Source: Chlorops oryzae (Eukaryota > Arthropoda > Insecta > Diptera > Chloropidae). From it: 64,000 bases of DNA. The stretch's first letter is position 1, and every line of letters starts with the position of its first letter. Below the pieces are notes generated by a model. The model was not told the DNA's origin, did not search any database, and saw only the letters and a program-made list of their open reading frames with translations. Positions 6,391-49,561 of the stretch are shown piece by piece. The stretch covers positions 79,765,779 through 79,829,778 of the forward strand of contig CM035808.1 in the NCBI GenBank assembly GCA_020466095.1, read 5' to 3'. The position numbers and the translations under genes were made by a program.

Positions 6391-8819
6391 CGGACGTGCA
6401 TGGAATGCACCAAGAAACGCGTGTCGATCTGCTAGGGAAGCAGAGTTGATGGATGTGCATGGAAAGCTCCTGCTGTAGAAGAATGATTTGAAATCGCTGG
6501 TCGATCATTCCTTTTTAATCTCGAAGAGTTCGATATGTTCGACAGTCCACGCGCAAGTGGATTTGCATGAGTTCGCAATTTATTAAAATACTTTTCTTTG
6601 ATTTTGGTGAACTCAGCTTTGACCAGTTCAACGTTTAACTCTCTATGAATCCGTTCATTTGAGATAAACCAAGGAGCTCCCGTTATAGTCCTTAGTATTT
6701 TGGACTGCGCTCTTTGCAGGATTTCTATATTCGAAGCGCTTGCATTCCCGTGCAATTGTAACCCGTACATCCATATTGGTTTTATAGCTTGATTGTACAG
6801 GAGGATCTTATACTCAAGTTTTAGAGGAGAACGGCTATTTATTAACCAGTGCAGGCTTATGGCTTTAAGTTTCATTTGGGTTCTCTTGGCTTCAATATGC
6901 TTACGCCATGTCAATCTTTTGTCCAAATGAATACCGAGATATGTGATATCTTCGCATTGTGGGATGCGTACGTTATTGAGAAAAATGTCCGGAGAAGCTT
7001 TTCTATTGAGCGTGAAGGTAATATGTTGGCATTTGATCTCATTTATTTTGATACGCCATTTAGAAAGCCAATTTTGTATTTTGTTGAGATGATCTTGCAG
7101 TGTAGAAGTTGCAACACTAAAGTCCTTGTGCCGACTAAGGACCGCTGTGTCATCAGCAAATGTTGAAATCACGATTCGATCGTTATAAGGAATATCTGCT
7201 GTGTATACTAGATAAAGAAAAGGCCCAACAACACTCCCTTGGGGTACTCCTGCATTGATTTCAAAACTTTTTGTAATGTACGAGTTATGTTTTACTTGGA
7301 ACGTTCTATGTTTTAAATATGACTCAAAGATCGCGTGAAAATTAACGGGAAGTAGTTTTCTGATTTTGTACAACAATCCATCGTGCCAGACTTTGTCGAA
7401 TGCTTGCTGCACATCTATGAATACTGCAGAGCAATACTCCCGATTTTCATAGGCAATCCTGATTTCGTTGGTAATTCGATTTACCTGTTCGATAGTACCG
7501 TGTTGTTTCCTAAACCCGAATTGATGTTTTGGAATTATATTCTGCTCTTGCAAATAAGGTGTTAATTTAGCTAAAAGAACCTTTTCGAATAGTTTTGAGA
7601 GGCAAGGGAGAAGGCTAATTGGTCTATAAGAGGATGTTTGGGTAGGGTCCTTTCCTGGCTTAGGCACCATTTTAATGACCGATCGTTTCCAATCTTTTGG
7701 AAAGTAACTGAATTTAATTATTGCATTGAACAAGACTGTTAAAAACTGTACTGCTACAGATGGGATATTTTTTAACATTTTTGGAGTGACAAGATCATGT
7801 CCCGGGGCTTTTTTTGTCACAAGTTCATTTTTTATGATACCCGAAATTTCACTTGAACTAATTTGGACGGAAATTCTGCGTGTATTTTCGGATTCGTTCG
7901 GAAGAGTATACTCAGAATTACTCGGATTTGGTTGGAATACTTTATTAAGGTGCAAAGCAAAAGCTGTAGCCTTCTCTTCGTCTGAGCGCGCCCAACCACT
8001 GTTGGGACACCGAACAGGTGTTTCACTCTGCACAGGAGTCTTAAGAAAACGGCTTGCCAACCACAAGGAGCTACGATTTGAGCCTACAGGCGTAAGATTT
8101 TCGACAAAGTTGTGAGCTTTAGATTTTTTTTCCCTATTTAGAGCTATTCTAAGCTTTTTTTCTACTTCTTTTAGTTTGTTTTTGGCCAACGGAGACCGGG
8201 ACCGTTGCCATTCGCGTCTGAGCCTTCGTTTTTCTGCGACGAGTTTTTCGATTTCCCTATTTGAGAAAGTCCTATTTGAGCTATATTCAAAACGAGGAGT
8301 CGCATTTTGCGCTGCTGATCCTAGATACGAATTAAACACAGTTACGGCGTCGTCAATATGCTCATGGCATTCAATTTTATAATTCGTATGAATATGCGCA
8401 CTTATGTATTTTTTGTATTTTAGCCAATTTGTACTTGGATTTGTTAAGCTGAGTGGACGTTCAACTTCAACCGGATATTTATTTAAAGCAAATAAAACCG
8501 GGGAATGATCCGAGGAGAGGTCGGTAGTTGTTTTTGCAGAAATTAGCTCTCTTGCAATACCTTTAGTTATACCGAAATCTAAGAGGTCTGGAATTTTTTG
8601 GAGATCTGTTGGCCAATAAGTTGGCTGTCTGGGAGATACAAAGTCAAGAGAATTATTTTTATTGAGCCCCAGAAAGTGTGCTTCGCATTATAGTCTCCTG
8701 CTGCTAGAAACTTATCACCCAAAGTCTTAAAGAAGTCTAAGAACAGCGTTTCCGTAACACAAAAGCGCGGCGGGCAGTAGATTGCCGAAAGTACGATATT
8801 TTTCCCTTGCAATACGACG

Positions 8820-8847
8820 CACAGTGTCGCGAGCGCGGCCAAAAATG
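8820..8847 (+). other. Left Transib end: heptamer, 12-bp spacer, nonamer-like block
   Basis: Heptamer CACAGTG (8820-8826) equals the vertebrate recombination-signal consensus. After exactly 12 bp (8827-8838) comes CCAAAAATG (8839-8847), which matches the canonical nonamer ACAAAAACC at 6 of 9 positions. The spacing is counted directly. Functional equivalence is inference. Confidence 0.7.
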
Positions 8848-9435
8848 CCAAAAATGAAGATTGGAAATGCTTAAAAATTTTTACTGTTATGAGTAGTCAA
8901 TATTTATACTAAGAGTAATCAAAAAAAATTTTCTTAATATGTTAAGCCGTTTAAGCGCAGCACGCTTTTAAAGTTACACTAAGCGAAATTTGTTCGATTC
9001 TGTTAGCAAAACTTTTAAAAATAGCTAATATTTGGAGTGCTATAATTTTGTTGAAAGTAGTCTCGCCTTAATTATTTATATGCCAAATTATAACATAAGC
9101 TTTATGCTTTAAGTGACATTTAATTTATTGTTTATATTTGTAACATATGTTATTTTCCGTTACATTAAAATAAGGAATTTATAAAAAGAAGCGATAAAAA
9201 GCAAAATAAATTTTTAAAATTAAAAATAAAAAAAACGACCCCTCAAACCGCAAAGTGTTTTTTTGTTTTATATACCTCGAAGTGATATAAGCATAAGTAT
9301 GTAATATGATCGGCTTTTTCCTGCGGGTTTTTTTGTTATGTCGATTTTATTATAGTGATCTCCGTTGCTAGAAGGGAACTCTATAGTGTGTGACTCTCTT
9401 CTAAAGACAGAAAATGGGGAGCAAACCAAAACGAT

Positions 9436-9738
9436 ATGATAAGTTTTGTTAAACAAACTTATTTTGCTGATTTAGATGAAGAAGATTTGAAAACAAAATT
9501 AAGCTGGTTTGGATCCAAAATTCAAAAAAAGTGGCATCAAAGCGGTAGGAGGAAAACTGCATTCGAAGAAACCAATGCGAATTGGTTAAATTCCTCCATC
9601 GATTTTAAAATTAGTGAGGCAGTAAGTACAGGAGTTTTTAATATTAGCTTTAAAATTAATCTCATCAAAAAAAATGTCCATGCCAAATTTCAAGAAGAAT
9701 TAACACTCAAACATTTAATAATTTTGGAACAGCAGTGA
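9436..9738 (+). CDS. Hypothetical 100-codon ORF inside the Transib-like element
   Basis: I do not recognise this protein. It starts MISFVKQTYFADLDEEDLKTK and is rich in charged residues. A KKWHQSGRRKTAFEE stretch is followed by a hydrophobic/polar C-terminal half. There are no cysteine clusters or DDE-type motifs. Base composition is less biased than the surrounding AT-rich DNA, which suggests real coding history. It may be the start of a larger deleted transposase or a captured host exon. The ATG at 9436 is the first in frame. Confidence 0.35.
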   Translation: MISFVKQTYFADLDEEDLKTKLSWFGSKIQKKWHQSGRRKTAFEETNANWLNSSIDFKISEAVSTGVFNISFKINLIKKNVHAKFQEELTLKHLIILEQQ

Positions 9739-10208
9739 TTATTGAATGAGCGTACGGGCGAAAGCGGTACAATTGTTTCGTTGAATTTTCATGCATTTTC
9801 ACTGCATTGCAATTATCGTAAGTCGTCGTGTAGACCTAAAATTTTTTTGAACTGTGATAAATATATATTTTAAGTGTTGAAATCCATAAAAAGTTTCTTT
9901 ATTTTTTAATTAGCTACAAAAAATTCTATATAAACAAGTGCACCATAAAAGTGCGCACTTTGAAGGGGCGTAGTTTCTTAAGGGGGCGTGGCACCAAAAA
10001 AAATATTTTGGGGTCTACATTTTTTTCCTGTACATAATCTGTGTACTAAGTTTAAGCTTTCTAACTTTAAAACTGTGGAAATTAGAAAATCACTTTATAT
10101 GGGAGGTGGGCGTGGCAGTTGGCGAAATTCTATGATTTTCTCAAAATTTCTTAATTTAGGCTATAGTAATACTCCAACCAAATTTCATTGCTCTACGACC
10201 ACGCCTTC

Positions 10209-10247
10209 TATTTTTGGCCAAGAAATGTATGGAGTCGCGACACTGTG
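10209..10247 (-). other. Right Transib end: heptamer, 23-bp spacer, nonamer-like block
   Basis: Read inward from 10247 on the minus strand: CACAGTG (10247-10241), 23 bp (10240-10218), then CCAAAAATA (10217-10209). Both ends share GGCCAAAAAT, placed 11 bp (about one helical turn) further in here than at the left end. The pair therefore has the 12/23 arrangement known from V(D)J signals. Confidence 0.7.
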
Positions 10248-10541
10248 CGACGCAGATTGACGTTGCCTGAATAAATTCATAACTATAAGAATCCATAGAG
10301 AAATGCTGTATTCTTCTACGAATGAGTATACCCGTGCCTCCATGCGCCTTACCATCTGGGTGGTTGGTTTGATAAAATTTATACCCGGTGATTGAAAAGA
10401 AATTTTTATTTCTTAAATGAGTTTCAGAGAGAAGCATGACGTCAACTTCCTCTTGATTTAAAAAATTCTGAATCTCTAGTTTATGTTTTGTTAACCCGTT
10501 CGCATTCCAGGCACAAATTTTTAGAACACTCATATCTTAGC

Positions 10542-27544: not shown

Positions 27545-28369
27545 TTAGATTTTTTTTTTATAGGCAAAAAATGTTTCAATTTGCGTTGTTTTCCACACAA
27601 GGGTGATTTGAAGGTTAAGGAAATTATCAAAATTCGTGGAAAATGATGTTATCATCTTTGCACTGCTTTCCAAAATAAATGCGAAATTGGCATGGTACTT
27701 ACAAACGCACATATTGTGTGGTGTCTTGCATGATAGTTGCACGTATTTTGGTCTCAATTCATAAAATGCGGACTTACTGACGTAGTCCATATTTCTCTCC
27801 CTTTTGTATAACTCATACGACTCAGAAACGGTAAGCAACATAAAGCGCTTGGACATTACTTTCTCATCGACGATTAGTGTATCCTTCCGACCTGCCGCTT
27901 GGATACTAATATCATTTTGCAAGTAGAACTCCTTAACAATTTGCCTTTTTTGATCCATTGCTGAGTCAGACTGTTGTTGCGAAGATGCTGGACCATATGT
28001 GCCATATTTTTCATGGAGGATGTCAATGATGTGTGTTTTTTTTTCTGGGTCGACCGGCAAAGCTTTTTCGACCTTTTTCAATGCCTTTTCTAATGTTTGC
28101 TTGCACTTGTAAGGCTGATTGACTGGCGGATTGTTTTTTTTTTCACCTTCACTCTTCTTTTTCATACGAAATTGTTTTTGCCTTTTACGGTTTTGTTCTT
28201 TAACTTTCTCAATGTCTTTCGATTTCAACAACTTGCGTCTATATTTCGCAGCTCGTTCTCTTGCCCTTTCACGGCTTATTTCCAACCTAAGTGAATCCGA
28301 TTTCAATTTTTCCCTGTAGCGCTTCGAGTAATTCTTCCTTTCAGTCAAAGATTCCATCTGCATATACAT
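27545..28369 (-). pseudogene. N-terminal fragment of an unclassified transposase-like protein
   Basis: An open 274-codon frame. Residues 1-80 are highly basic and helical (RERARERAAKYRRKLLKSKD). Then come YKCKQTLEKALKKVEKALP, an IQAAGRKDTLIVDEKVMSKR block and KTPHNMCVCKYHANFAFIL. The same order of blocks occurs in the protein at 41627-43275 (KFKQTRGKAIKKAERALP, VQSAAKKDTLNVDG, KIPHNMCVCIHHANLNFWL), so the two are homologues at moderate divergence. The fragment stops before the DFAENY region seen in the other copy. The flanks 27300-27545 and 28370-28750 are AT-rich with nothing recognised. Confidence 0.6.
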
Positions 28370-28752: not shown

Positions 28753-30045
28753 ACAGGTTGGCTGATAAGTCCCCGGTCTGACACATAGATGGCGTCGCTA
28801 GTATTAAATGCATATTATTTTTATATAGTGGCAAACTTCAAATGATTCGTGTCAAAATTTGACGTCTGTAAGTCAATTAGTTTGTGAGATAGAGCGTCTT
28901 TTGTGAAGCAACTTTTGTTATTGTGAAAAAATGGAAAAAAAAGGAATTTCGTGTTTTGATAAAATACTGTTTTCTGAAGGGAAAAAATACAGTGGAAGCA
29001 AAAACTTGGCTTGATAATGAGTTTCCGGACTCTGCCCCAGCAAAATCAACAATAATTGATTGGTATGCAAAATTCAAGCGTGGTGAAATGAGCACGGAGG
29101 ACGGTGAACGCAGTGGACGCCCGAAAGAGGTGGTTACCGACGAAAACATCAAAAAAATTCACAAAATGATTTTGAATGACCGTAAAATGAAGTATATCGA
29201 GATAGCAGAGGCCTTAAAGATATCAAAGGAACGTGTTGGTCATATCATTCATCAATATTTGGATATGAAACAGCTCTGTGCAAAATGGGTGCCGCGCGAG
29301 CTCACATTTGACCAAAAACAACAACGTGTTGATGATTCTGAGCGGTGTTTGCAGCTGTTAACTCGCAATACACCCGAGTTTTTGCGTCGATATGTGACAA
29401 TGGATGAAACATGGCTCTATCACTACACTCCTGAGTCCAATCGACAGTCGGCTGAGTGGACAGCGATCGGTGAACCGTCTCCGAAGCGTGGAAAGACTCA
29501 AAAGTCCGCTGGCAAAGTAATGGCCTCTGTTTTTTGGGATGGGCATGGAATAATTTTTATCGATTATCTTGAGAAGGGAAAAACCATCAACAGTGACTAT
29601 TATATGTCGTTATTGGAGCGTTTGAAGGTCGAAATCGCGGCAAAACGGCCCCATATGAAGAAGAAAAAAGTGTTGTTCCACCAAGACAACGCACCGTGCC
29701 ACAAGTCATTGAGAACGATGGCAAAAATTCATGAATTAGGCTTCGAATTGCTTCCCCACCCACCGTATTCTCCAGATCTGGCCCCCAGCGACTTTTTCTT
29801 GTTCTCAGACCTCAAAAGGATGCTCGCAGGGAAAAAAATTGGCTGCAATGAAGAGGTGATCGCCGAAACTGAGGCCTATTTTGAGGCAAAACCGAAGGAG
29901 TACTACCAAAATGGTATCAAAAAATTGGAAGGTCGTTATAATCGTTGTATCGCTCTTGAAGGGAACTATGTTGAATAATAAAAACGAATTTTGACAAAAA
30001 AATGTGTTTTTCTTTGTTAGACCGGGGACTTATCAGCCAACCTGT
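28753..30045 (+). mobile_element. mariner element, irritans subfamily (Himar1-like)
   Basis: Terminal inverted repeats start ACAGGTTGGCTGATAAGTCC at both ends, the sequence known from Himar1 and irritans-type mariners. They are flanked by TA duplications (28751-28752, 30046-30047). Total length is 1293 bp, typical for the family. Both ends are almost perfect. Confidence 0.96.
28931..29978 (+). pseudogene. mariner transposase with a +1 shift right after the start codon
   Basis: From codon 3 to the stop the frame is uninterrupted and complete. It has the helix-turn-helix DNA-binding half (KSTIIDWYAKFKRGEM, SGRPKEVVTDENIKK), the mariner WVPRELT and VTMDETWLYHYTPESNRQS blocks with the first catalytic Asp, the second Asp in VLFHQDNAPCHKS, and HPPYSPDLAPSDFFLF with the third, giving the D,D34D triad. 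The natural ATG at 28931 is followed by a run of eight A. Family members need seven there (MEKKEF), so the ATG is out of frame with the body and only a GTG at 28923 is in frame. The copy is young but probably not translatable as full-length transposase. Confidence 0.93.
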
Positions 30046-31602: not shown

Positions 31603-32765
31603 TGTTGGGATATAGGGAACTAGCGCTCAGACAAAGTCGAGCGTATATTCGTTCCTGTAGTCCTCTTTCAATAAAAGAGTGAAGCTAAGACTTTATTTTA
31701 TCTCTTCTTTTATTAATTGATCCTTATGTCTAAGGCAGGCTTTATTTCACTATGCACTATCGTATGTACGCACATCAAAAGCAGAGACTTCCGAAAACCA
31801 GTCTGAGCTTCCCATGTTCGAAGCTCCCATTTTAGAGCTCAATATTGCTGATATTGCAATATTGGATATCGCTGTAGATTCTTTCAGAGCCTCTTGCATA
31901 AGTTTTACTTTAGCATTCACTTGCAAGTGTATCTTCATGGCTGATTACTTGATGACTCATCAACTCGTGCCCTCCCGTTTTTTCCCTTGCCCGCCAGTGC
32001 AAGTTGTGTTGCTGCGCTGTGATAGTTACTTCAATTTTCGTTTTCCAAAATCCAGGTTTTTGATGTTGTTTTGACAGTGCTTCAATGCTGTTTATAGGGA
32101 AAAATTTGTTTCGCGTGCAGAAACTGTTAATGCTGCAAGTATGATTTGGCCTTGACAATGGGTTAGCCTTGAAGATACAGTTGATATGATAATGCTGCAA
32201 GTATGAACTGGCCTTGGCAATGGGTTAGCCTTGAAGATACAGTTGATATGGTAGAACGCTGTATTGTGATATTTGAATGGTTGGTACAACAATTTTTTCG
32301 TTCGGGAGTCAATGCTGGCTCCCCACTCTTCCTCTCTTATAGAAGCCGCGAAACTGGATATATAGACTTCGGCTAGTATAGATCGTTGAATTCTGTTGAT
32401 GATTAGTTGAAGAACGAAGAATTGATGAAGATAATTTAGATGTTTGCGATTTTCTGACTTTTAGTTTCGGTGTTGTTGAATACTTCCGACGTTTGTGGTT
32501 TGATACTTATTTTTAGGTGCTTAAATATTTATGACATTCTCTGTTTTCTTTTATTTTCAACATTATTTTCTTATTTCTTTGTATATTTGTTATCTCTTAA
32601 TATCTACCTTTTCCATTATTTAATTAAAATTTGTATAATTAATTGAAAATTCGATTTTAAAAACTGTTCTTCGCACCTTTTTTTTTCTATTGTATATAAA
32701 TTTTCTTCTTTTTTATTAAGTTTTTATTACGTATTTGATTAAATTCTTCAATTTTGTTTTTCTTA
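31603..32765 (+). repeat. Outer left arm of the inverted-repeat complex
   Basis: Pairs with about 49562-50954. It includes an LTR-like start (TGTTGG..., aataaaag at about 31670) and a 62-bp tandem duplication (atgctgcaagtatga...gttgatatg at about 32130 and 32192) that is present in both arms. Degraded outward-reading protein similarity shared by the arms (MKIHLQVN.KVKLMQEAL, KQHQKPGFWKTKIEVTITAQ) lies at 31750-32250 on the minus strand. I do not recognise the protein. Confidence 0.65.
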
Positions 32766-32773
32766 GGTGCTGA

Positions 32774-33232
32774 TTATGTATGGCTACTTTTTTTTAGTTT
32801 GTAAGCCTTTCGCGCAAGACTTATTGCGTATGGCAATTAGAACATGCAGCTGATTTTTTAGTTGCCTCACAAATTTTGGAGCGATTACGGATGGCAACGC
32901 TTTTTCGGTTCGGTTGCCTTAACAGACAAAACAAGGCAACTGCTAAATAGCAGTTCCATAGCAACTCCATATATTTCTTTTTGTCGCGTAATTTGTGAAC
33001 CTAATGCATAAACTTTTCAAAAAAAACTGTTGCAAATCAACTAATTTCAAAAAATATTGATGCTCTCCTGAAACATATGTTTTTAGTTGCCGAAAATGCC
33101 AGATTTTCAGTTGGCAACGCGACGCAATAGTCAACCAAAATAAGTTGCCATCCGTAATCGCAATTTCTAGTTCAGTTGCCTTAATAGTTTGGTTGCCTCT
33201 GAGGCAACTCAACTTTTTTTGGTTGCCATACA
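32774..33232. mobile_element. MITE with TGTATGGC...GCCATACA ends
   Basis: Left tatgtatggctac(t)n and right ggttgccatacata are inverted. The adjacent AGTTGCCT/AGGCAACT blocks and several further GTTGCC/GGCAAC words are also inverted. It sits inside the tip of the long-TIR element, separating GTGCTGATTA from acactag. A TA-type duplication is possible. Confidence 0.6.
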
Positions 33233-34398
33233 TAACACTAGTTTACAAAAAATATGGGTAGCGCTAAAACAAATTTTTTCTAACTAATTAAAGGTCTCTG
33301 ATCTCGAAAATGGCATCCATATGTATTTCCAAAGAACAGTTTCTGAGATATATGCAAAAAATGAGTTTTTTCGTTAATTTTTGATTTCTTACTAAATAAG
33401 TCAACAACTGTTGATTTTAAAAAAACTTTTATATATATAATTTAAAAGAAAAAAAATTACCCATTAAATTGGTATATCACACGATTTAATTGATGGCTTA
33501 GTTTTTGAAATATGGACAAAAAAGTTAGAAAAAATGGAATTTTTTACGATTTTTTCCCATTTGACAAAGTTCAACTTTGATTTTCGACTGGAAATATTTT
33601 TTTTTTACATTTTTTACATTTTTTTTTTGATAACTTACGATAAAAAACTGCTATTTTAGCTATACAAAAAATGTTATTTAATCCAAATCGGTTGAGAAAC
33701 TATGAAGCTATGGTGTATAATGCTAATGAACTCAAACTCAGAAACGTTTCATTTCCCCAAATTTCAAATTCTGATTTGACACTATATGTATGAACAACTT
33801 CAGAATTTTATGTATATTAATTTTTTTGGAATCTTGTAACAACTATACTAAAGTTCAAGTAGTAATGTATGTTGAGTGATGGGGATAATGCTAAGTGAAA
33901 ATGAGTGTTATCAACCTACTGTCTTCTTTCTAATGTGCACAAAAGCACTTAGAAGTATGGTACGAGTATTTGCAAAATTATATGAATATGTCACTTTTAA
34001 TCCTGGGCATTTCACAGTTGGGCTGGATCGACCTTAGCTTTCTTACTTTCCCCTCTCGGACGAAAGTAACTTTTTCCACTTTTTGTTTTCCTTTTATGGT
34101 TTGTAACATCTTCACGAAGTTGCATCCAACAAAAATTGCTCATCATGCCCTGGTCCCAAAGTCCTTCATATCGTTTCTCCATTATTGCTATATTCTCATG
34201 GAACCTTTCTCATTGCTCGTCGCTCTCTGCTCCTAGGTTTAGAGGAAATTTATCCAAATGACTGTGGAGAAAATGCATTTTAAGAGACATGCGGGCCCCT
34301 GCAGTCAATAAAGTTCATGAATTTAAAGAAACAAGATTTCAAAGGTCGTAGCATTACATACCGATTGCATGAAAGCTTTCAAACATGTGTTGTATTTT

Positions 34399-35565
34399 TA
34401 TACCCAGCGTAAGCGGGGTATATTAGTTTTGTGCGAATCTTGTAACAGGGAGAACTAAGCTCCGGAGATATAGACATATATATATAGAAATGATCAGGAT
34501 CAAAAACTGAATCGATTTAGACATGTCCGTCTGTCCGTTCATCCGTCCGTCTGTCCGTCCGTCCGTGGTCGGATCTCCTCCGAAACGGCTGGACCAATCA
34601 AGTCGAAATTTGGCACACAGGTATATCGGGATCCGAGTATGATCCTAAGTAAAAATGGGAGACATCCGCCCACTGCCACGCCCACAAATGAATATAATGT
34701 GTTTTCAGTAAAATGCTTGTAACTTGCGAACCACTCAACACATTCCATTGATATTTGGTGTACTGGTAAACTACGAAAAGGGACATATCCTGGCAAAAAA
34801 TGGACGCCGCCCTCCGTGAGCCACGCCCACAAATAAGCCCACAAATCAGGGCTTATCGTAACCTGTGAAGTAAAAGGCGTAGAAGGTTCAAATTCGCAGC
34901 ATAGGTTGACCAAGGCGAATGAAAGGTATAGGAAAAAAATTTATATGGCCCGCCCACTTCCACGCCCACAAATGGAGATTTTTCGTAACTTCCGAAGTAA
35001 AAGGCGTAGAAGCTTCAAATTCGCAACATAGGTTCACCAAGGCAAACGAAAGGTGTAGGGAAAAAATTTAACTGGCCCGCCCGCTGCCACGCCCACAAAT
35101 GAAGATTTTTCGTAACTTCCGAAGTAAAAGGCGTAGAAGCTTCAAATTCGCAACATAGGTTCACCAAGGCAAACGAAAGGTGTAGGGAAAAAATTTAACT
35201 GGCCCGCCCGCTGCCACGCCCACAAATGAAGATTTTTCGTAACTTCCGAAGTAAAAGGCGTAGAAGCTTCAAATTCGCAACATAGGTTCACCAAGGCAAA
35301 CGAAAGGTGTAGGGAAAAAATTTAACTGGCCCTCCCGCTGCCACGCCCACAAATGAAGATTTTTCGTAACTTCCGAAGTAAAAGGCGTAGAAGCTTCAAA
35401 TTCGCAACATAGGTTCACCAAGGCGAATGAAGGGTGTAAGGAAATAATTTATGTGGCCCTCCCACTGCCACGCCCACAAATAGAGAAGAAAAACATAGTG
35501 CACTCATAATGTCGGGACGCTGGGTATTTCAAAGTCGGGCTTGACCGACTTTAGCTTTCTTATTT
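34399..35565 (+). mobile_element. DINE-1/Helentron-like repeat, copy 1
   Basis: Starts tatacccagcgtaagcgggg and ends gggtatt plus a hairpin (gtcgggcttgaccgac) and ttctTatttgttt. A (C)CGTCTGTCCGT microsatellite lies at 34526-34570. This order (subterminal inverted TATACCC/GGGTAT, internal CCGTCTGTCC, terminal hairpin) is that of fly DINE-1-type Helentron-associated repeats. It contains a 127-bp minisatellite and is inserted in a transposase gene. Confidence 0.6.
34850..35480 (+). repeat. 127-bp minisatellite within the DINE-1-like repeat
   Basis: The word gatttttcgtaacttccgaa begins at 34977, 35104, 35231 and 35358, and a diverged fifth unit starts near 34850, giving a period of 127 bp. Units share gtaaaaggcgtagaagcttc and ctgccacgcccacaaatg. 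The middle units are almost identical, so the expansion is recent. Confidence 0.93.
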
Positions 35566-37587
35566 GTTTCATTATTAATTTGGTTCCGTTTGTTTCCTAA
35601 AAATGCTTGAATTACTTGATGAAAGGAATATCAAGCTGTTGCCTCATTTTCTGGCCCGTCAAATAAACCAGCTTTAATTTTTTCACACGATATTTTTTGA
35701 AACTTCGACCTTAGGTATTTAAGCGCTCTATTTTCTGGGTTTTTATCTAATGCCCTTACAAAGTATAATAACGTTTTCCTTCTCAACGAGAGCTTCTTCG
35801 GATACGTTGCTCCTTCCCAGTACATGGTGGTCGCGCTTTGGCCACTGACTTTGAATGAAGTGTTCTTCATCTGCTCTGCTGTCCCACAAACATAAAAAGC
35901 AGCAATGTTTGGTGTAGCCACCTTGCAGGCCAGTGAGAATGGCTACGACTTTCAGGTCACAGCATATCTTCCACTTAAACAATTCATAATTAAGCAATTT
36001 GAGAAGCTCTTTCATTTGCGCGTAGGTTTCTTTTCTATTTGTGGAGTGGCCAACCAGAACCGATGGTTTTTTATTTCCCTTATGGAGTAGGGCAGCCTTT
36101 ATACTGTTTTTGTTGCTGTCAATGAAAAGGCGCCACTGACTGGTATCGTGGAATTCTCCAAAGCGTGCGATTAAACCTTGAATGTCATTGCAGTAGCAAA
36201 AATTACCCATTACCGAAAAAAAACTGTTCTAAATTTCTGTTTCGTTTTCTGTAATATGTTATACGAGTTTGGGGCTCCAAAAATCCACGTTCTTTTAATT
36301 GAGATGCAAGCATCTCCGCATTTTCCTTAGACAAGTTAAGGTCGCGACAAAGATCACTTAAAGATGCTTGATTGAAAGGGCTCACTTTTGGGCGTTCTTC
36401 TTCGGATTCACTGGACGCACTCCAATTGGAACATTGTGGGCCTTTTACGCCACTCATTCTCGGCTTCGGATCTGGTGGCTCTACTTTCAAGCTTCGAAGA
36501 GAACGAAGTACGGGTTTTATTGTTGATTGCACTATCAGATATACTACTTTTCGAAATTTTTCTCCATGAATGCGGGTCAGGCAGAAGTAGCAGTCAGTTA
36601 CGTGGTCGATCGGTTTTCTCCACTCCATGGCCGTATCAAAATTTAAGCCTCTTTTCATTCTACTTCTAATATCTTGTGGCCGATTAGAACACGACTTACA
36701 TACAGATTGTGGAGTCCATTGCTTGTCAACATTAAGGGCGCGATACCCAAAATAAAGCTCATAAGCTGCTAAAATGGTTTTCCACAGTTTTATTTGTCTA
36801 TTTTTATTAAAAATGTACTCGCCGCAAACGAAACAAAACTTTTCAAGTGAGTGCTTGCACATTTTCAAAAATAATTATTTTGTTTTTATATTTTATAAGA
36901 ATATAAATGCAACAGTGTAAGAAAGCTACGGTCGATCCAGCCCAACTGTGGAATACCCAGGATTAAAAGCAGGGCGTGCAACCGGAACAGAAACCGTAAC
37001 CGTTACCGATTTTAACCGATTTATTTTCCTAATCGAAATAAAACCGATACTTTGTTTTTTTTTGGAAACCGGTTCCCGAATCAAAACCAAAACACCGAAA
37101 CCGGTTCGAAACGGTTTCTGAAACAATTTCCAAATCTTCCCCAAAATTTCAATTTTTTTCATGTTCGCTCATTAATACGCCACGTAAACATTCAGTCTGG
37201 CTGATCAGTCACCCGTGTGCGCGTTTATGTACTCTTGCCTATACATTTCCCTTCATATGTCGGTGTGCCGCACACGTGTCTTTTTCACTAAAACAAATAA
37301 CTGACTCATTCAGTCAATGTGACTCTTAATCAATTACATTCTATGTTATGTTTACATGAGCACTTGATATGTATTTACTCGACACGTTTAAGACTATCTG
37401 TCTTTTTTTGCCACCAGTAAAAATCGTGTGTACTACTCGCTCGTAATTTCCCCGCCAATGCATTGAACTGTAAACTTTTACTCTGAGGTGCCATTCGAAA
37501 ATCGACAGTCGCGTTTGAACTAGTGCCGAAGTAGAGGCAAAAGGGTCAATTCAGTAAATTTGCTATACTACGATGATAGATGGGGGA

Positions 37588-37670
37588 CCGGCCCGCGCTG
37601 TCGTAGCTAACAGCGTAGCGCGTGCGCCCCGCGATCCGAAGGACTCAGGTTCAAATCCCGGGCCAAGCGA
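37588..37670 (+). ncRNA. tRNA-like (SINE head) segment
   Basis: Contains a B-box-like ggttcaaatcc (37648-37658) followed by cgggcc and a T run (37678-37692), with a GC-rich 5' half containing tagctaacagcgtag as a weak A box. The T run could act as a Pol III terminator. I cannot fold it into a credible functional tRNA, so I call it a tRNA-derived SINE relic. Confidence 0.45.
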
Positions 37671-37879
37671 ACGCCGATTTTTTTTTTTTTTTAACTATTA
37701 GTAAAAATTGGGGTTTTAAGTGGAATAAAAAGCAAATATAGAAAAAAGAAAGGTTTCAAATTGGCCGAAAATGTTGAGCGAATTTGTGCGCAAAGTTGTC
37801 AGACAGCATTGGTGAAGACTTGTTTTTCAATCCAATTATTTGAGTTTTTCGAAACATGTCATTCTTCCAAATTTTTTCG

Positions 37880-37960
37880 CCTGCGACAGGAATCGAACTC
37901 GAGCCCTTCATATTGCCAAGCGAATACGCTTTCACTACGCCACTGACCTATCTGACTCAC
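37880..37960 (-). ncRNA. tRNA-like segment, opposite strand
   Basis: The minus strand reads cagtggcgtagtgaaagcg (A-box-like), then about 35 nt later gagttcgattcctgtcgca (B box GTTCGATTCC). Spacing fits an internal Pol III promoter. It is probably a second tRNA-derived relic carried in the hAT element. No anticodon arm was confirmed. Confidence 0.45.
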
Positions 37961-39395
37961 GCACAGAAAATATATTAGATTAATGTGTGGGCAAATTTGA
38001 ACTGTTGAATATGCCACTAGTTAGGTTCTACTGTTCGTGTCTCTACTCGCGTACTAGTTCTTTTTCCTATACTCGAGAACTACTCGCTAGGGCACAATTG
38101 ACCCCACTCTTCCTACAGGGTACTTAATTTTCTCAAAACATTTGCTCGTGAGTCTGACTCTAGAATATTGAAATTTCTTAACGTGTACATGTGTATTGAC
38201 AACGCCTTTAATTTTGTGCTGTGAATATCAATGGTCTATAAAGCGAACCCGACACGGTACTGAATTGCTTACTGAATCCTGAAAGGTTAAGGTGCGTTTG
38301 ATGTCTATATTTCGAAGTAAAGATTTTATTTGTACTGCAACGACAGTTGGACATATTGTTATAGAGTTTGCTTTGCAAGAGATTAATCTTGATTTTTTTC
38401 CGCGGTTCTTAAAATCTTTGAAAAACCGTAACCGGAACGAAACCATACCAAAACCAAAATAGTTTTTTTCAGAACGAAACCGTAATCGAAACCATAATCA
38501 TTTCATAACCAAAACCATAACCCGAACGTTATTTGTTTCGTTTGCACGCCCTGATTAAAAGTGACGTATTTATATAATTTTGCAAATACTCGTACCATAC
38601 TTCTAAGTGCTTTTGTGCACATTAGAAAGAAGACAGCAGGTTGATAACACTCATTTTCACTATTATCCCCATCATTATCCCCATCACTCAACATACATTA
38701 CTACTTGAACTTTAGTATAGTTGTTACAAGATTCCTAAAAAAAAAATAAAATACATAGAATTCTGAAGTTGTTCATACAAATAGTGTCAAATCAGAATTT
38801 GAAATTTGGGGAAATGAAACGTTTCTGAGTTTGAGTTCATTAGCATTATACACCATAGCTTCATAGTTTCTCAACCGATTTTGATGAAATAACATTTTTT
38901 GTATAGCTAAAATAGCAGTTTTTTATCGTAAGTTATCAAAAAAAAATGTAAAAAATGTTAAAAAAAAATTTTCCAGTCGAAAATCAAAGTTGAACTTTGT
39001 CAAATGAGAAAAAATCGTTAAAAACAATCAATTTTTTCTAACTTTTTTTGTCCATATTTCAAAAACTAAGCCATCAATTAAATCGTGTGATATACCAAAT
39101 TAAAGGTAACTTTTTGTCTTTTAAATTATATATATAAAAGTTTTTTAAAATCAACAGTTGTTGACTTATTTAGCAAGAAATCAAAAATTAACGAAAAAAC
39201 TCATTTTTTGCATATATCTCAGAAACTATTCTTTGGAAATACATATGGATGCCATTTTCGTGACCAGAGACCTTTAATTAGTTAGAAAAGAGGTGTTTTT
39301 GCGCTAACCAAGCAAAAATCCCAAAAATTGTAAAGTAGTGTAATCAGCACCTTAGTTTCTACCCTTCATCATGAATGTGCTCTATATAAATAATT

Positions 39396-40209
39396 ATACC
39401 CGACACACTCCGTGTCGAAGGTATATTGCGTTTGTGTGGTTGTGTGTAACACCCAGATCCAGTCGAGATAGACCATACAAAATGAATATAGAAATGATCA
39501 GCGTCACCAGGATATTCGATTTAGCCATGTCCGCCTGTCTGTCCGTCTGTTTGTATACAGTTTTCTTATCGAAGGAGTTGAGATATCTCAAAATTTGGTA
39601 TACGTACTCACAGGTACATGAGTAAGAACAAGTTCGAGAATGAACCCGATCGGACCATTTTTAAAGGTAGCTCTAGTACTAGGGTCTGTTATGAAAATCA
39701 AAAAAACTGCTCCAAAACCGGATTTTTACAAGATATTTTGATGAATTTTGATAGTTGAACATATTTGAAGTCAAGTTATTCAATGTCAAAAAATTGGCAA
39801 AGTTGGCGTGGCCGAAGGGCGTTTTCCGAAAATGGCTTCCTTCACCCGAAATTCAAATGTGTGTTGAACGAAATTTGGAAGTTATGCTTTCTTTGTAGCC
39901 ATAAACATCCTCTCCAAAATTTTTTTTGATAGGTGCATTATTAAGGGTACCTCCAGTACTAGCGTCTGTCACAAAAATCTCAAACCTGCCCCAAAATGGG
40001 ATTTTTTGGAAATATTCCACTGAAACATAGAATTTGAGCGCGTATTAAGGCCTCCGACTATAATTCAAAAAAATTGGAATAGTGGGCGTGTCAAAAGGGC
40101 GGTGTTCATAAAGAAATTTAACAAAAGTCGGTATATGGGGCGCCTCATGGCCTTAAACACCTCTTGATATTAAAAATTATTTGAATATGTGTGTCTGTGT
40201 CGTCTCCCC
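39396..40209 (+). mobile_element. DINE-1-like repeat, copy 2 (3'-truncated)
   Basis: Starts tatacccgacacactccgtg and runs through the ccgcctgtctgtccgtctg microsatellite to gtgtgtctgtgtcg, lacking the terminal hairpin present in copy 3 (57251-58105). The matching position in the right arm (about 49740) has no insertion, which delimits it. Confidence 0.65.
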
Positions 40210-40710
40210 GTTAAAAAATTTTCTTTTTCAATTGTCAGGATGGTTCGATTCCTTATTGAAAATATTTGAATATAATCAATAATTATAGGCTTTAATTAGT
40301 GTCTTTTTTATTTTTCCATAGTTTTATAAAATTTTTGTCTTATTTTTTTTAACATTTCAATATTTTCTTGTACATAAAATCTTTAACTAATTTTATTTTT
40401 TTTTTTTAAGTGTTACCATATTTCTGTTTTCTTCAGGGAACGTAACAGTTATTACTTATATAATAAAAGTTTAACAAAACAATACATTTTCTTACTTATA
40501 TTTTATTTTAAAAAATTGTACTGTTAAATATTGATGTTTCTAGTCAAACGATAACTTTTAAACTGAGACAAATATTTTTTGGTGAAAAATAATAATAAAA
40601 TAAGTACCTACATATTACCATTTTGGTGTTTTTTACGAATTTTAGTATAATCTGTTTTTTTAATATATGGGTCAAATGTTCCCAACTGGGCCACTGTAAA
40701 ATCGATAGTC

Positions 40711-41061
40711 TCAGATTTGAGTGATACGGCATTCGATATCCTGAGTCCCTCCTGATTGTTTCAAAGTCGTGGCGCTCTTTACCCATTTATGGACAATTAC
40801 GTCGCCAAAGCTCACCTTTGGTTTCATCATTTTGCTTTTTAATAAAAATTCCTTTCCACTATCTATGTTTTTCAGCTTAAAGCTTTTAGAATATTCTTCT
40901 ACATCTTCTAAGAGTATATTTGAAATTTCTAGCTCCTCTAACTTATTTTCTTCCTTGTTATCTACGAATTTTACTTTCTTTTTATTTGAGGAGACTGGAT
41001 TAGGTCTACAAATTTTGACATTTAATTTGGTGTTCCGGTATATTGACCTTGACCGGGCCGC
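40711..41061 (-). CDS. Unrecognised coding remnant shared by both arms (left copy)
   Basis: About 115 codons open on the minus strand. Blocks include RSIYRNTKLNVKICRPNPVS, KFVDNKEENKLEELEISNIL, MMKPKVSFGDVIVHKWVKSA and TQDIECRI before a TGA. The right arm (48300-48630, plus strand) encodes nearly the same protein, including the stop position, although with one internal stop. Conservation of the frame between arms suggests a real C-terminal coding exon of the element that makes up the palindrome. The start is not visible and I do not recognise the family. Confidence 0.45.
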   Translation of the reverse strand, partial: AARSRSIYRNTKLNVKICRPNPVSSNKKKVKFVDNKEENKLEELEISNILLEDVEEYSKSFKLKNIDSGKEFLLKSKMMKPKVSFGDVIVHKWVKSATTLKQSGGTQDIECRITQI

Positions 41062-41626
41062 TGGGAGTTTGGCAATTATTTATCATTTGTTGCTCGTTAC
41101 AATATGTATATGGGCACTTCCGCAGGCCCTGAACGTACGTTCGTACGCTTTTGATGTTAAAAAAAAAACATAGAAAACCAACATTCTCCGAACATTTCTT
41201 TCTGCAATTAGATAAAGTTTTGGTAGCTCTTTATATTGTGCAAAAGACAGGCTACATCGGGTTTTAGTTCTTATAATAATTCCAAAAAACATGCGGACCC
41301 GAACGTACGAAAAATATAAGTCGAATTTTGCTGAGTCTATTTAAATGTAAAACTCTGCGATGTGGAACGGAATTTTGGAAAGCAGTTAATTTATTTTGAA
41401 AAATATTAGATGTAGCTTGCTTTTGGGTATTTTCACAACAAAATATCTCTATTGGTTTATTTACAATTAGCTTAAGAACCGGTCGCGAACGTACGGTCGC
41501 AAAGTACGTTTTTTCCATGTATTTTTTTTTCAGATTATCACCTTATATTGTATCTTTATAAGCGTGAAGAATGTTTATAACACTAAATTTTGTGAAGAAA
41601 CAAGAGTAAATTTAAAAAATTGCGTT

Positions 41627-43275
41627 TTAATATGTTTTATTTAATAATGTATAATAATAATGAGATATTAAAGTTTTTTTTTTAATGAATAAGGCCGTTC
41701 GTCCTGTGCTGAGCTCAAAATTCTCATCGCACAAAATTGAATGTATCATTCGGATACCAGGAACATTCGGAACATTACTCCATTTGTTCATTAAATTCGC
41801 GGATATCTGAGCAATTTTGTCGATTCCAACGTAAAAAAACCTTAATTCCACTAATGTGACAGTGGGCACAGTTATAAAATGAAAGTGCATCATTTAAAAC
41901 AATATTGCTTGTCTTCGTTAGCTGAAAAACTTTTCTTTTTACAGCCGCTCCAACACCATCGACAGCCCCTTTACCATGCGATGTGGCAAAAACATTCCAC
42001 TCAAGCACTTCACATTTGAATTCCGCCATTAAATCGGGCAAGCTCCAAAACATGAATTTGTTTTTGAATTGGCAACTGCTTCCGTCCGAAAAAAAGCAAA
42101 ATTTTATGAAAGTTTCCATGTTTTTGTTTAACATCTTCGACAATCATAGTTAGAAAGACGTAGACATCGGCTTTGCTATGACTTAAGCTATCGCTTATAA
42201 CGGCAACTGATATAGATTTTTGGTGCATCCATACAACGCAAGTAAAAATTGAAGCTTGGTTATAGCTAAAATGTACGCTTTGCACTTCGTTTTGGCAAAC
42301 CAGCCTATAATTTTCGGCGAAGTCATTTTGAAGGACAAGTTCTCCGGGCTTGATATTTTTCCTCATATCGGCAAAATAATTTTGCTGGTGCCGCTTTACA
42401 AAGAAGTGTGTCTTAAAAGTTGGTAGTTGAACTTCCAAATCATACAGTATGTCTGAAAACGGTGCTACGGAATTATTTAAAGTTATTCTATCATTGACCT
42501 TCCTCCAGTGTTGCCATTGCACAATTTCATCCATTTTCGACAGAAATTTAATTGATACAATTGATTCAATACCTTTTGTGCAGTTTTCGCAATCGTTGGT
42601 CATACAGCTTTCATTCTTAACATCACAGCAAGTTAATTTCAAAAAGCATTCAAAGGTATTGGGAAAAGATTTGATAATTGTTGCGCAACCTTTTAACCAA
42701 AAATTTAAATTGGCGTGATGAATACACACACACATGTTATGCGGTATTTTGGACGAAAGCTCAACGTATTTGTGTCGACATTCAAGAAATTTTGCCTTGC
42801 CTACGAACTCTTCAACTAATTCGCTTTTGTAAAGTTCATAAGCTTTCGATACGGTTATTAACATAAATCGTTTAGCAACGATGTTCCCATCAACATTGAG
42901 GGTATCCTTTTTGGCCGCCGACTGAACGCTTGTATCTTCCCGCAAGTAAAAATCTTTGGCCAGCTGCAACTTGCCCTCTGATCCTGAGTCAACTGTTGCA
43001 CAATTCGCGTTTTTGTCAATTGTTGGTTCAACATACTTTTGAAATAGTGCCGTAATAACCTCGATTTTTTTATTCAAATCGTTCGGCAATGCCCTTTCGG
43101 CCTTTTTAATAGCTTTTCCACGAGTTTGTTTAAATTTATACGCTTTATGACTTTCTTTTTGTACAGCTTCAATTTTCTTCCTTTCTCGGTATTCCCTCAA
43201 ACGTACCTGTTCTTTTTCTTGAATGTTTTTAAGCATCGTTTTATTTGTTGCTAGTGCTGACCGTCGTTTTCTCAT
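41627..43275 (-). pseudogene. Unclassified DDE-type transposase-like pseudogene (DFAENY / FATSHGKG family)
   Basis: The main frame (43275-42010) has a basic N-terminus, KFKQTRGKAIKKAERALP, KIPHNMCVCIHHANLNFWL, a cysteine cluster (CCDVKNESCMTNDCENC), VLQNDFAENYRLVCQNEVQS and ISDSLSHSKADVYVFL. A T-run frameshift near 42095 moves to a second frame with FFSDGSSCQFKNKFMFWSLP, FATSHGKGAVDGVGAAVKRK and a C-terminal HCHISGIKVF block. A stop and another shift precede the final VPGIRMIHSILCDENFELS. Three conserved acidic sites (DFAEN, SDSLSH, SDGSSCQFK) look like DDE-type catalytic positions. The family is recurrent in insects and cnidarians. I would compare it with Sola but cannot assign it. A diverged N-terminal homologue lies at 27545-28369. 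Confidence 0.65.
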
Positions 43276-43639
43276 TCTTTCAGCAGCTTTTTACGCAATT
43301 GTTTCAATTTTAGGGGATCGCTTTTTATTTTGTTTTTGTAACGCTTACGTTTTTCGTCTTGTGATTTATCCTAACCCATCTATGATAATGTATATCTAGG
43401 ATAAAAATTTATGCATTGAAATAAAACAAAAATATTACTTACGGTCGCGAACGTACGGAACTTTGACGGCAAAATACGAAAGACTGGGTGGTTGTATCCG
43501 CAGGAAAATTTTGATTTACGATTAGCGACGCCGACCTTGTTTAATTTACTTTGTTTCCAACACGTACTTTCCCTTACTATGAAGATACAGTGAAAAGAAG
43601 TTATTTATGGTCGCGAACGTATGGTTTGAACATAGATAG

Positions 43640-43935
43640 GAATCAAACTCTAAAATAACAGCAGTTGGAACTTCTTCTTGCCCCTTTGCATTTTTTTCTT
43701 TAAAATTGACTTAAGGAGAGAAACTTTGCAGAAAAAATGCGACCAAAACACATGTTGAAAAATTAAATACAAATATGTCTTACAACATAGCTCAAAATGA
43801 AAAATGTATATTTTTCACTTTGCAGATCAATTTACACATCAAAACGACTAAAATGTGTTAAAGCGCCATTGAATTATAAACATTTGAATATTTTTTTATG
43901 GTTATTCACAATCAAATTCTAAAATTATCAAACTT
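43640..43935. other. No feature seen
   Basis: AT-rich sequence between the transposase-like locus and the gag remnant. No repeat or ORF was recognised. Confidence 0.5.
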
Positions 43936-44425
43936 TTATTTTTCGGTTCTGGTTGACCGGCTGGCGGAAATGCCCATATGTTTGTTTATGAAATAATTCC
44001 TTCTACCATTTTTATCATGAAGGTTTTCTGATTCTTCCGCTAATTTTATTAAGTCTGCAATCGTTTTATCGTTTGAGCTTTCAAGTCTACTTTGCATATA
44101 AGGGTCTCTTACTCGAAAGATGAATTTGTTGGAAGCCAGTTTTCTATATTCACTAAGTGCTGATTTTGCCTCTATTTCCGTCCATGTCTTTTTAATAAAA
44201 AATTCTGCTTCATTTAACAAGAATTCTAGTCTACCACCGAATGTTGATACTCCCTCGTCCTCCTGTTGCTCTGCGCTTGCTATTTCTGACTAAATAGTTT
44301 CCAGGCTTCGCTTCTTTAAGAATTCTCTATTTATTAAATCGCAAAGTTCTATTATATTGAAACTGTCAACTACACTCTTTAATAATTCAACCCCTGTGAC
44401 AAACCCATCAACCTCTAAGCTTAAT
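43936..44425 (-). pseudogene. LTR-retrotransposon gag remnant
   Basis: One frame with a single internal stop reads VVDSFNIIELCDLINREFL, stop, SEIASAEQQEDEGVSTFGGR, LNEAEFFIKKTWTEIEAKSA, SNKFIFRVRDPYMQSRLESS and TIADLIKLAEESENLHDKNG. The helix-rich pattern ending in a basic tail is that of Gypsy/Copia-type gag capsid domains. It stops before any zinc knuckle. There are no LTRs nearby, so it is an isolated fragment in the loop of the palindrome. Confidence 0.55.
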
Positions 44426-44429
44426 TATC

Positions 44430-46119: not shown

Positions 46120-46178
46120 ATACCCAAATTTTGTAACGAGCAACAAATGATAAATAATTGCCAGAGAAACTCCCAGCG

Positions 46179-48277
46179 CACTCTATTTTGGAAAAAAATA
46201 GAAGGGGTGGTCGTAGAGCATTGAAATTTTGCAGAAACACTTATGGGGGCTAAATTAAGATATTTTGAGAAAATCTTGGAAATCCGCCCACTGCCACGCC
46301 CGCCTCCCATATAAGTGCACAAGTCAAATTTTTTTTTTTTGAGCTAGGGACTTGAAATTCGGGACACTTCTTAATTGAGCTCTCCTAAAAAAAAAAGCTA
46401 AAATTATTGGGGATGCAACGTCTACTTTGGGTGTAACGCCCATCGAAAGTTGGATATTTTACATGTTTTTATTTTCTATCTAGCATTATATCGAATTTTC
46501 ACATAAATTAAAGAATTTTAATTTTTTCCAAAAGCTTAAACAGTGCTTGTCTCCATTCAAAAAAGATAATACCGTCAACAGACTACCGCGAACGATATTA
46601 GCCTTAAAAATCACCGAAAATATCTCACAAATGCATTCCGCTTTTCTAGTAAAGCATGCCAAGTTAAAGTGTGTCATAGAAAGAAAGTGATGTTAAATAC
46701 ATCTATGAAACCTTTTTAATGCCAAATAATTATGTTTTTAATTTGTAATATTATTCAAGCACCATACCTTCAACAACGGGATCTAAATCTAAGGAAATTT
46801 TGTTCGAATGACACACTCCGCGATCTTCACATTCCTAAAAATCTTTTGTTTTTCTACTCTTCGTTCTATTTGCTGATGAGGAACTGCATGGCAATGCTAC
46901 CTCAAATGTATCTAAAAAATAAGTAAAAGCTAATAACATCGTTTACAATTGCTGCCCGAAAACTCACTTGTTAGCCAAACTGAATTCATTAGTGGTCCTC
47001 ATGCAGTTTCGCAAATTTTACGAAGTGGGAAACTTTGCGAAATGGGAAATGAACTGTCAAAATTCGTATGGAAGAAATTTTACTAAGCGTGACAAACTTT
47101 CCCATTGGTTTTTGCTTCGCAAATCGTCGTTAGCTAGTGCGCATAGTAAGTTGGGGTGGTCATACACAGCCAATCGCGTTTGACAAGCCTATGACTTATA
47201 GTACAAATGGTTTTAAACGTCAATTTGAAAAAGAAAGAAGCAGTGGGAAGATAGATAAGCTTTAATTAATTATATTCGAAGGGTCGCTCATAGAGCGTCG
47301 GAAAATTTGCGATCGCAAAATTTACGAAGGCTATTTGCGAACCTCCATGAGGACCACTATTGAAAAAAAGGGCAATACTTAGACCTGCGGCAAACCACTT
47401 TTTATTAAATAAAGGTAAAAAGCGCTGCGATATATTTCTTCTTACTGTGAGAATCTTACATATGCAACTTCTTCATCAGTTACACCTGCATTTCTCGATA
47501 CACTCAATGAAACTGCATTGCGATCGGTGTTAATTAGCTCCTCGGTTAATTCTTTATACGAAACTGAAAAAGTACTTATGTCATATGAACTATATATGCT
47601 TTTAACTAATAAAATCTCTCATCCGCGAAAACTATATGCTTTTGTTTATATTGAAATGTCATTAAATTTCGTTTCGTTTCATAAATAAATCGTTCCATGT
47701 TTTAATTACTTATGCCCTAAAAGTATGCCCCATTTCTTGTCTTATTGAGCATTTGTATGAAATATTGCAAGTGACTTTGAAATTCAAATCGATGTTATTT
47801 ACAGAAAAGGTATTAGGAGGTGATTTTTTTTTGTTTAAATTGAAAGCATTTTATATAGTAAGATGGCTAAGCAAGGCAAAGCACATAAAGTTTTTTTCAA
47901 CAAAAAATGAGAAGTTGATATTTTTTACTCTATTTTCTGGCGAATTATAATAGTTATTCTACTTTTCCAATTTTAATAATTTTTTTACATGAAAGAGTAA
48001 TTAATATATTTCCACCAAAAAATAAAACAAAGGCAATAGCTTTGAATTTTCACATAAAAAATGTTCTCTATTTGGACTACAATTTTAATCTGAAATTTAT
48101 TGAATAACATTCCTTTGACTTTTGTTAGTTTTATTTTTTTTAATAAAAAAATTCAATTTTCACAAAAAAGAATGTCGAATTCCTCATATCCAAATATTTC
48201 TTTACAAAAGTGAATCATTAAAATTTTGAAATGCAAAAGTTGATAAATCCTATTTTTTCCACCGATTCCCCACTGTG
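46179..48277. mobile_element. Second Transib-like element (2.1 kb, diverged)
   Basis: Flanked by the 5-bp duplication cagcg (46174-46178 and 48278-48282). The right end, read inward, is CACAGTG, 12 bp (48270-48259), then AAAAAATAG. The left end starts CACTCTA and within 30 bp joins aatagaagg.gtggtcgtag, the subterminal block also found at the right end of the element at 8820. The right arm of the palindrome is interrupted at this point and its sequence is continuous once the element is subtracted. A MITE is nested at about 46991-47363. No RAG1-like transposase is visible. Confidence 0.7.
46991..47363. mobile_element. MITE with TAGTGGTCCTCATG ends
   Basis: tagtggtcctcatgcag at the left is inverted at the right (ctccatgaggaccacta), followed on each side by the shared ttcgcaaat/atttgcgaa and ttacgaag/cttcgtaaa blocks. 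It is nested in the second Transib-like element. The duplication is unclear (TA possible). Confidence 0.7.
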
Positions 48278-48299
48278 CAGCGACCCGGTCAAGGCCAAT

Positions 48300-48630
48300 A
48301 TACCGGAACGCCAAATTAAATGTCGAAATTTATAGGCCTAATCTAGTCTCCTCAAACAAAAAGATAGTAAAATTCGTAGATAACAAGGAAGAAAATTAAT
48401 TAGAGAAGCTAGAAGTCTCAAAAATACTCTTAGAAGATGTAGAAGAATATTCTAAAAGCTTTAACCTGAAAAACATAGATAGTGGAAAGGAATTATTATT
48501 TGAATGCAAAATGATGAAACCAAAGGTGAGCTTTGGCGATGTAATTGTCCATAAATGGGTAAAGAGCGCCACGACTTTGAAACATCCAGGAGAGACTCAG
48601 GATATCGAATGCCGTATCACTGAAATCTGA
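48300..48630 (+). pseudogene. Unrecognised coding remnant shared by both arms (right copy)
   Basis: Plus-strand counterpart of 40711-41061: KLNVEIYRPNLVSSNKKIVK, one in-frame stop, LEKLEVSKILLEDVEEYSKS and PKVSFGDVIVHKWVKSATTL, ending CRITEI and TGA. It reads outward from the palindrome centre, as does the left copy. Confidence 0.45.
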
Positions 48631-49559: not shown

Positions 49560-49561
49560 TA

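Follow-up and report, generated by a model that had tools for sequence, protein, structure and literature searches.

Unequal 12- and 23-bp end spacing in a family of Transib transposons of the fly Chlorops oryzae

Transib DNA transposons are relatives of the transposon thought to be ancestral to vertebrate antibody-gene recombination, and the origin of the 12/23 asymmetry of that recombination is an open question on which the family described here bears. We analysed a stretch of 64,000 nucleotides from the dipteran Chlorops oryzae (assembly GCA_020466095.1, contig CM035808.1, positions 79,765,779 to 79,829,778 of the forward strand; hereafter the window). The segment at window positions 8820-10247 is very probably a non-autonomous, internally deleted Transib, and its combination of one short and one long end spacing a trait of its lineage.

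Several described systems resemble this element in part. The vertebrate recombination signal sequences (RSSs), 12RSS and 23RSS, have the identical heptamer CACAGTG, spacers of 12 and 23 bp and an A-rich second element, as here, but they are signals of gene segments rather than ends of a whole transposon and carry ACAAAAACC where the element has CCAAAAATG/A (6 of 9 positions alike). Among insect Transibs, passages of PMC8355894 (citing Kapitonov and Jurka 2005) state 12/23 ends for Transib5 of Drosophila melanogaster and for Transib2, N1, N2 and N3 of Anopheles gambiae, and symmetric spacings of 20-22 bp for other Transibs. Compared by this published description, the 12/23 elements have a heptamer, a nonamer-like block and spacers of 12 and 23 (+/-1) bp like those found here, whereas the left end of the present family often has a second block at 21 bp. 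Subgroup II Transibs include both asymmetric and symmetric ends, according to a passage of PMC9435367. HzTransib of Helicoverpa zea (6pqn) has a transposase that matches pieces of a coding relative described below (locus L049), and a 5-bp duplication is common to both, but passages of PMC8289069 describe the HzTransib ends as symmetric and as resembling the nonamer little or not at all; the duplication published for it is GCTCG (PMC1852546). ProtoRAG and other RAG-like transposons also have bipartite ends and 5-bp duplications, with asymmetric spacing in some (27/31 in ProtoRAG, 4/13 in AanRAGL), but their spacings and heptamers are different, and a RAG2-like gene is a feature of theirs.

One proposal traces the unequal signals of antibody-gene recombination back to a Transib with 12/23 ends, and 12/23 discrimination is reported only for RAG1 complexed with RAG2 (both in passages of PMC8355894). 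Since 12/23 insect Transibs were published previously, the idea is not new; what is new here is a further family with many duplication-verified copies. Paired blocks at 12 and 21 bp are not mentioned in the literature passages on Transib ends that we consulted, no search having been aimed at it.

The window element is 1428 bp long, and both of its ends carry a perfect 13-bp terminal inverted repeat (TIR), CACAGTGTCGCGA, that starts with the heptamer CACAGTG. It interrupts open reading frame (ORF) 2 of a non-long-terminal-repeat (non-LTR) retrotransposon. Its features, and those of its relatives and host in the window, are the following.

6435..10533, reverse strand: non-LTR retrotransposon ORF2, the insertion host, split by the element and with its frame also broken elsewhere
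8815..8819: left copy of the target site duplication, CGACG, 5 bp
8820..8832, forward strand: left TIR CACAGTGTCGCGA, 13 bp, with the heptamer CACAGTG at 8820-8826
8827..8838, forward strand: left spacer TCGCGAGCGCGG, 12 bp
8839..8847, forward strand: left A-rich block 1, CCAAAAATG, at spacer 12
8848..8856, forward strand: left A-rich block 2, tandem CCAAAAATG, at spacer 21
9436..9735, forward strand: 100-amino-acid coding remnant, interpreted as N-terminal sequence of a Transib transposase
9656..9659: internal deletion junction, where the relative L063 has 780 bp extra, transposase coding included
10093..10247, reverse strand: right subterminal region, about 72-84% identical in many fetched loci
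10209..10217, reverse strand: right A-rich block CCAAAAATA, at spacer 23
10218..10240, reverse strand: right spacer TCGCGACTCCATACATTTCTTGG, 23 bp
10235..10247, reverse strand: right TIR, 13 bp, with the heptamer CACAGTG at 10241-10247
10248..10252: right copy of the target site duplication, CGACG, 5 bp
46188..46314, forward strand: probable remnant of the right subterminal region of a related element, 82% identical over 130 bp, heptamer unrecognisable

The left end thus reads CGACG, CACAGTG, TCGCGAGCGCGG (12 bp) and CCAAAAATG, and the right end, in reverse complement, CGTCG, CACAGTG, TCGCGACTCCATACATTTCTTGG (23 bp) and CCAAAAATA. On the left, a second tandem block, CCAAAAATGCCAAAAATG, places blocks at both 12 and 21 bp from the heptamer. 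The block common to both ends is 10 bp long, GGCCAAAAAT, and spacers were measured up to CCAAAAAT. Against the vertebrate nonamer ACAAAAACC, CCAAAAATG and CCAAAAATA each agree at 6 of 9 positions; the run of A is kept, and neither block qualifies as a nonamer. When the flanks are fused with a single CGACG, the ORF2 frame runs intact through the insertion site, and this restored frame independently supports the exact boundaries of the element. The host ORF2 comprises an endonuclease part at 10250-10533 (Pfam Exo_endo_phos, 1.1e-9) and a reverse transcriptase at 6435-8339 (RVT_1, 4.7e-39). The original prediction had placed CACAGTG at both ends between cgacg duplications, which can be read directly and agrees with the TIR and the frame-restoring site. 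Its spacers of 12 bp on the left and 23 bp on the right are also as claimed, but it overlooked the second left block and passed over the perfect TIR and the 10-bp common block. We dropped the reading of the repeat at 46188-46314 as an unrelated dispersed repeat containing the right block in favour of a relic, since many loci have the right subterminal region next to their 23-type ends.

Among 56,690 CAC/GTG pairs lying 100-8000 bp apart in the window, four have identical 5-bp flanks and a TIR match of at least 9/13; the element matches at 13/13 and the remaining three at 10/13. CACAGTG is mildly over-represented in the window (8 matches, a number reached in 5 of 100 shuffles). A shared 10-mer occurred in 94 of 20,000 random pairs of 47-mers and in 344 of 18,619 pairs from the AT-rich interior of the element, the exact 12/23 position occurred in 13 of 6009 random ends with a common 8-mer, and a nonamer likeness of at least 6/9 is present somewhere at spacers 5-31 at 34% of window places. 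The spacing seen in the window copy alone is weak evidence and not decisive, and it is the genomic copies that settle the question. The 13-bp TIR string was found on neither strand in the literature searched, the TIR pattern had no matches in viral contigs and none in prokaryotic contigs, and no phage record matched the element.

We searched the 442-Mb genome for the heptamer followed after 10-25 bp by CCAAAAAT and obtained 1364 matches, compared with 4 for the reversed pattern as control. The places inspected were the first 100 of the 1364, all on contig C1 (first 37 Mb), and represent 95 distinct ends; the spacers among these listed matches were 12 (29), 23 (28), 14 (18), 21 (11) and 22 bp (7), with seven single others. 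Sixty loci, some overlapping, were fetched around part of these ends, and 29 gave genomic elements that, with the window copy, make up a tally of 30 complete elements. Partner ends were picked by heptamer, TIR likeness and 5-bp duplication; spacing was not used. Second views of one locus were removed (e.g. L005/L020, L014/L045, L019/L065, L022/L067, L023/L066, L025/L063 and L026/L064). Also left out were L028, L033 and L039, whose best partners had two mismatches in the heptamer; L068, whose partner does not resemble these ends; L010, with 12/23 ends between unequal flanks (CTCCG and CGTCG); and anchored ends without a partner.

Exact 12/23 spacing was found in 22 of the 30 complete elements (L056, a 22/23 tie by score, being counted as 23 by homology). 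Five are 11/23 (L021, L041, L047, L048 and L059), with near-identical ends that indicate one subfamily; one is 12/22 (L044, a 21/22 tie by score), and two, L061 and L062, from two other families, are symmetric at 22/22. All 28 complete elements of the lineage, window copy counted, therefore have unequal ends (11 or 12 bp versus 23, once 22), and the exact 12/23 spacing of 22 of these 28 holds at the level of the family. Apart from the window copy, 22 complete elements have a short spacer of 12 bp and five have one of 11 bp. The pair of left blocks at 12 and 21 bp recurs in many other left ends. No 12/12 or 23/23 element occurred among the 30, an absence that inheritance of both ends explains equally well. 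Element lengths range from 223 to 2475 bp, and the duplications are perfect in 24 of 30, with position tallies of C, G, N, C, G and exact CGNCG in 15 of these 24. One relative, L009, has the same length as the window element and is 98.8% identical to it over 1428 bp, but sits at a different site with its own duplication, CGCCG, so the window element itself has moved. Because 12/23 spacing recurs across the sampled elements, the architecture is a property of the lineage rather than of the window copy.

The two 22/22 elements (L061:201-996, and L062 on the reverse strand, 862 bp) have the same heptamer, a GGCCAAAAAT-like block and perfect CGCCG duplications. Judged by their ends, these families fit the symmetric Transib class, and symmetric and asymmetric Transib classes may well share one genome in Drosophila. 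We rejected the 14-bp-spacer class (18 of the 100 listed matches) as ends of the family: at five distinct loci (L003, L004, L006, L007 and L008, with L027 and L028 as second views) a near-identical 12-bp flank precedes the heptamer, which is therefore internal to a longer repeat. In this repeat, CACAGTGGTCGCTCCCATAGGCCAAAAAT or close variants follow CCTGCAACCATG (in one copy CGTGCAACCATG) and mimic a 14-bp-spaced end. Identical 12-type ends also lie in direct orientation 1321 bp apart at L024:1001 and L024:2322, both flanked by AGACG, which is L026's flank as well; this pair is possibly a tandem or segmental duplication.

In all 23 twelve-type ends the heptamer and the block CAAAAA are invariant, and spacer positions 8-19 vary to differing degrees; in 27 right ends both are near-invariant. 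This bears out the expectation of a conserved A-rich block, with the qualification that the invariance is partly built in, since a pattern containing both motifs served to pick part of the ends. Gap openings per substitution were fewer within heptamer, spacer and block than in the next stretch, both for 28 elements (left 0.133 vs 0.191, right 0.060 vs 0.125) and for a reduced set of 22 (left 0.087 vs 0.214, right 0.070 vs 0.106), a comparison that rests on non-independent pairs. The lower gap rate favours a constraint on length but does not prove one, since equal lengths are also maintained by shared descent.

Coding relatives identify the superfamily. Locus L049, with a 23-type end flanked by CGTCG, encodes in broken frames a protein that matches HzTransib 6pqn, its first piece (residues 9-236) at E=1e-33 and its C-terminal piece at E=3.5e-19. 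By our own count on the alignments, it has D, D and E opposite 6pqn chain positions 109, 208 and 419, which we equated through an inferred constant offset of 17 with the HzTransib catalytic residues D126, D225 and E436 given in a passage of PMC6941560. The ~575 bp preceding the end of L049 share 95% identity with the 23-side of the 11/23 element L041, so that the coding copy and the small 11/23 elements share a family, and another 23-type locus, L058, holds a related C-terminal transposase piece. L063 (the same locus as L025) opens with the window element's own left end and matches element positions 1-840 at 98.3% and 837-1077 at 97.5%; the 780 bp between the matched parts hold most of an ORF that is 50% identical to the L049 protein over 134 amino acids. 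L012 is a complete element: CGCCG duplications flank it, its left end is 12+21 and its right end 23, and it contains transposase remnants. L025/L063 and L012 connect the L049-type protein with the left end of the window element itself, which makes the 12/23 ends those of a Transib.

The other marks of the superfamily agree. The 5-bp duplications are CGNCG-like (CGACG in the window, CGNCG in the family), CGNCG being the published Transib target (in a passage of PMC4735498); both ends of the window element begin with CAC in an RSS-heptamer-like TIR; and a RAG1-core-like DDE transposase is present in the coding relatives, of which the window element keeps only a remnant. The match to HzTransib 6pqn rules out other transposon superfamilies, and the Transib identity proposed at the outset is supported. 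Given these alignments, the window copy is best read as a deletion derivative of a Transib. Its 100-amino-acid remnant is 29% identical to the N-terminal piece of L049 over 58 amino acids (29.6 bits; E 9e-7, calculated against this single sequence) and has matches of 81-99% in L025/L063, L012 and L009, lying just upstream of a segment with a GRP motif in L012 and L063; its length alone is within chance (5.5% of simulations). The motif reads KGRPRK in L025 and L012 and KGRPS in L049. Pfam recognised no family in the remnant or in the transposase pieces, the best PDB sequences for the remnant were unrelated proteins (E 0.25), and a protein search with it over 263 candidates returned none at E up to 10.

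The offset of 11 bp might, as the original prediction had allowed, be a chance indel in one copy of a Transib with truly symmetric ends. The shared block of the window copy is only modestly above chance and passages of PMC8289069 call most Transib families symmetric, but the tally refutes such an indel: all 28 lineage elements combine a short (11-12) with a long (22-23) spacer, in several different spacer sequences, and we give the idea practically no credence. Equal spacing at both ends, which the original prediction had named as the contrary outcome, was not seen in the 28 sampled lineage elements, and its proposal of 12/23 architecture as a family trait is supported. It is also unlikely that the functional spacing is nearly symmetric, such that the second left block (21) and the right block (23) work together and block 1, at 12 bp, is an unimportant tandem duplicate. 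Many left ends do have blocks at 12 and 21 bp, some ends have a decayed block 1 and an intact block 2, and 22/22 symmetry occurs in two further families of the genome; yet complete elements with perfect duplications (e.g. L011, L032, L044 and L057) lack a second block at a match of at least 8/10, and block 1 retains CAAAAA in every twelve-type end, part of which were picked by a pattern holding it. Distinctly more credible, if still short of probable, is a real asymmetry with irrelevant spacing, in which the last 13-17 bp are what the transposase reads and the A-rich blocks serve host factors or are subterminal remnants. Passages of PMC7204232 argue that invertebrate RAG-like transposases use mainly the terminal 15-17 bp and are relatively insensitive to asymmetry, and the 11/23 and 12/22 elements have transposed too, whereas the conservation of the A-rich block among sampled elements and the rarer gap openings inside heptamer, spacer and block than beyond (in non-independent pairs) speak for a role of the spacing.

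Several observations also weigh against the reading that we prefer, a Transib whose lineage is marked by a short and a long spacing. The sample comes from one contig. Much of the 23-bp spacer sequence is conserved in the 27 right ends (e.g. CATACA at 17-22, which departs by one base in one copy), so that its constant length is partly shared descent. In the five 11/23 elements among the 28 the block agrees with the consensus at only 7/10, a further element is 12/22, and the second left block permits a near-symmetric 21/23 reading. On the protein side, the L025/L063 ORF matches 6pqn directly at only E=0.063, and the GRP-bearing piece of L025 had no match among PDB sequences at E up to 10, so that its likeness to a nonamer-binding segment rests on a motif. 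The sampled loci yielded no intact autonomous copy having both ends: L049 is frame-broken and no left end was found in the ~7 kb upstream of its right end, and the right end of L063 was not found.

Lacking a usable transposase itself, the window element would have moved by cut-and-paste with a transposase supplied by other copies; its insertion at a CGACG target produced the 5-bp duplication. Cleavage by HzTransib resembles that by RAG, the flank being left as a hairpin and the transposon end blunt, and the RAG1 nonamer-binding domain (NBD) contacts the nonamer's minor groove through an AT-hook-like GGRPR (both in passages of PMC6941560); an NBD equivalent with GRP is reported in Transibs in a passage of PMC9435367. 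By analogy, the transposase core might act on the heptamer and TIR while its N-terminal GRP(RK) segment touches the A-rich block, and the spacer difference of 11 bp, about one helical turn, might bring the block to the same DNA face at both ends. We entertain only tentatively, and with some doubt, that a RAG2-free Transib transposase could enforce or strongly prefer the pairing of a 12-end with a 23-end, its GRP segment reading a block one turn further in. If this were true, the 12/23 rule would be older than the role of RAG2 in it, and the 22/22 families of the same genome would be a control lineage. Together in one genome, the duplication-verified 12/23 copies, the 11/23 subfamily and the 22/22 families provide matched natural substrates for asking whether a Transib transposase reads the spacing.

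Other features lie elsewhere in the window. A large nested inverted structure occupies 31603-50890, with further inverted pairs inside; its arms (~31945-32269 and 50096-50420) are 99% complementary, and each contains a pair of 62-bp tandem repeats. Two long ORFs at 27548-28369 and 42013-43275 are alike by eye, with no Pfam family above its cut-off. An uninterrupted ORF of 351 amino acids at 28923-29978 encodes a mariner-type transposase (Pfam Transposase_1 and HTH_48), and an inverted copy of it, 73% identical, is found ~22 kb away at 52333-53571.

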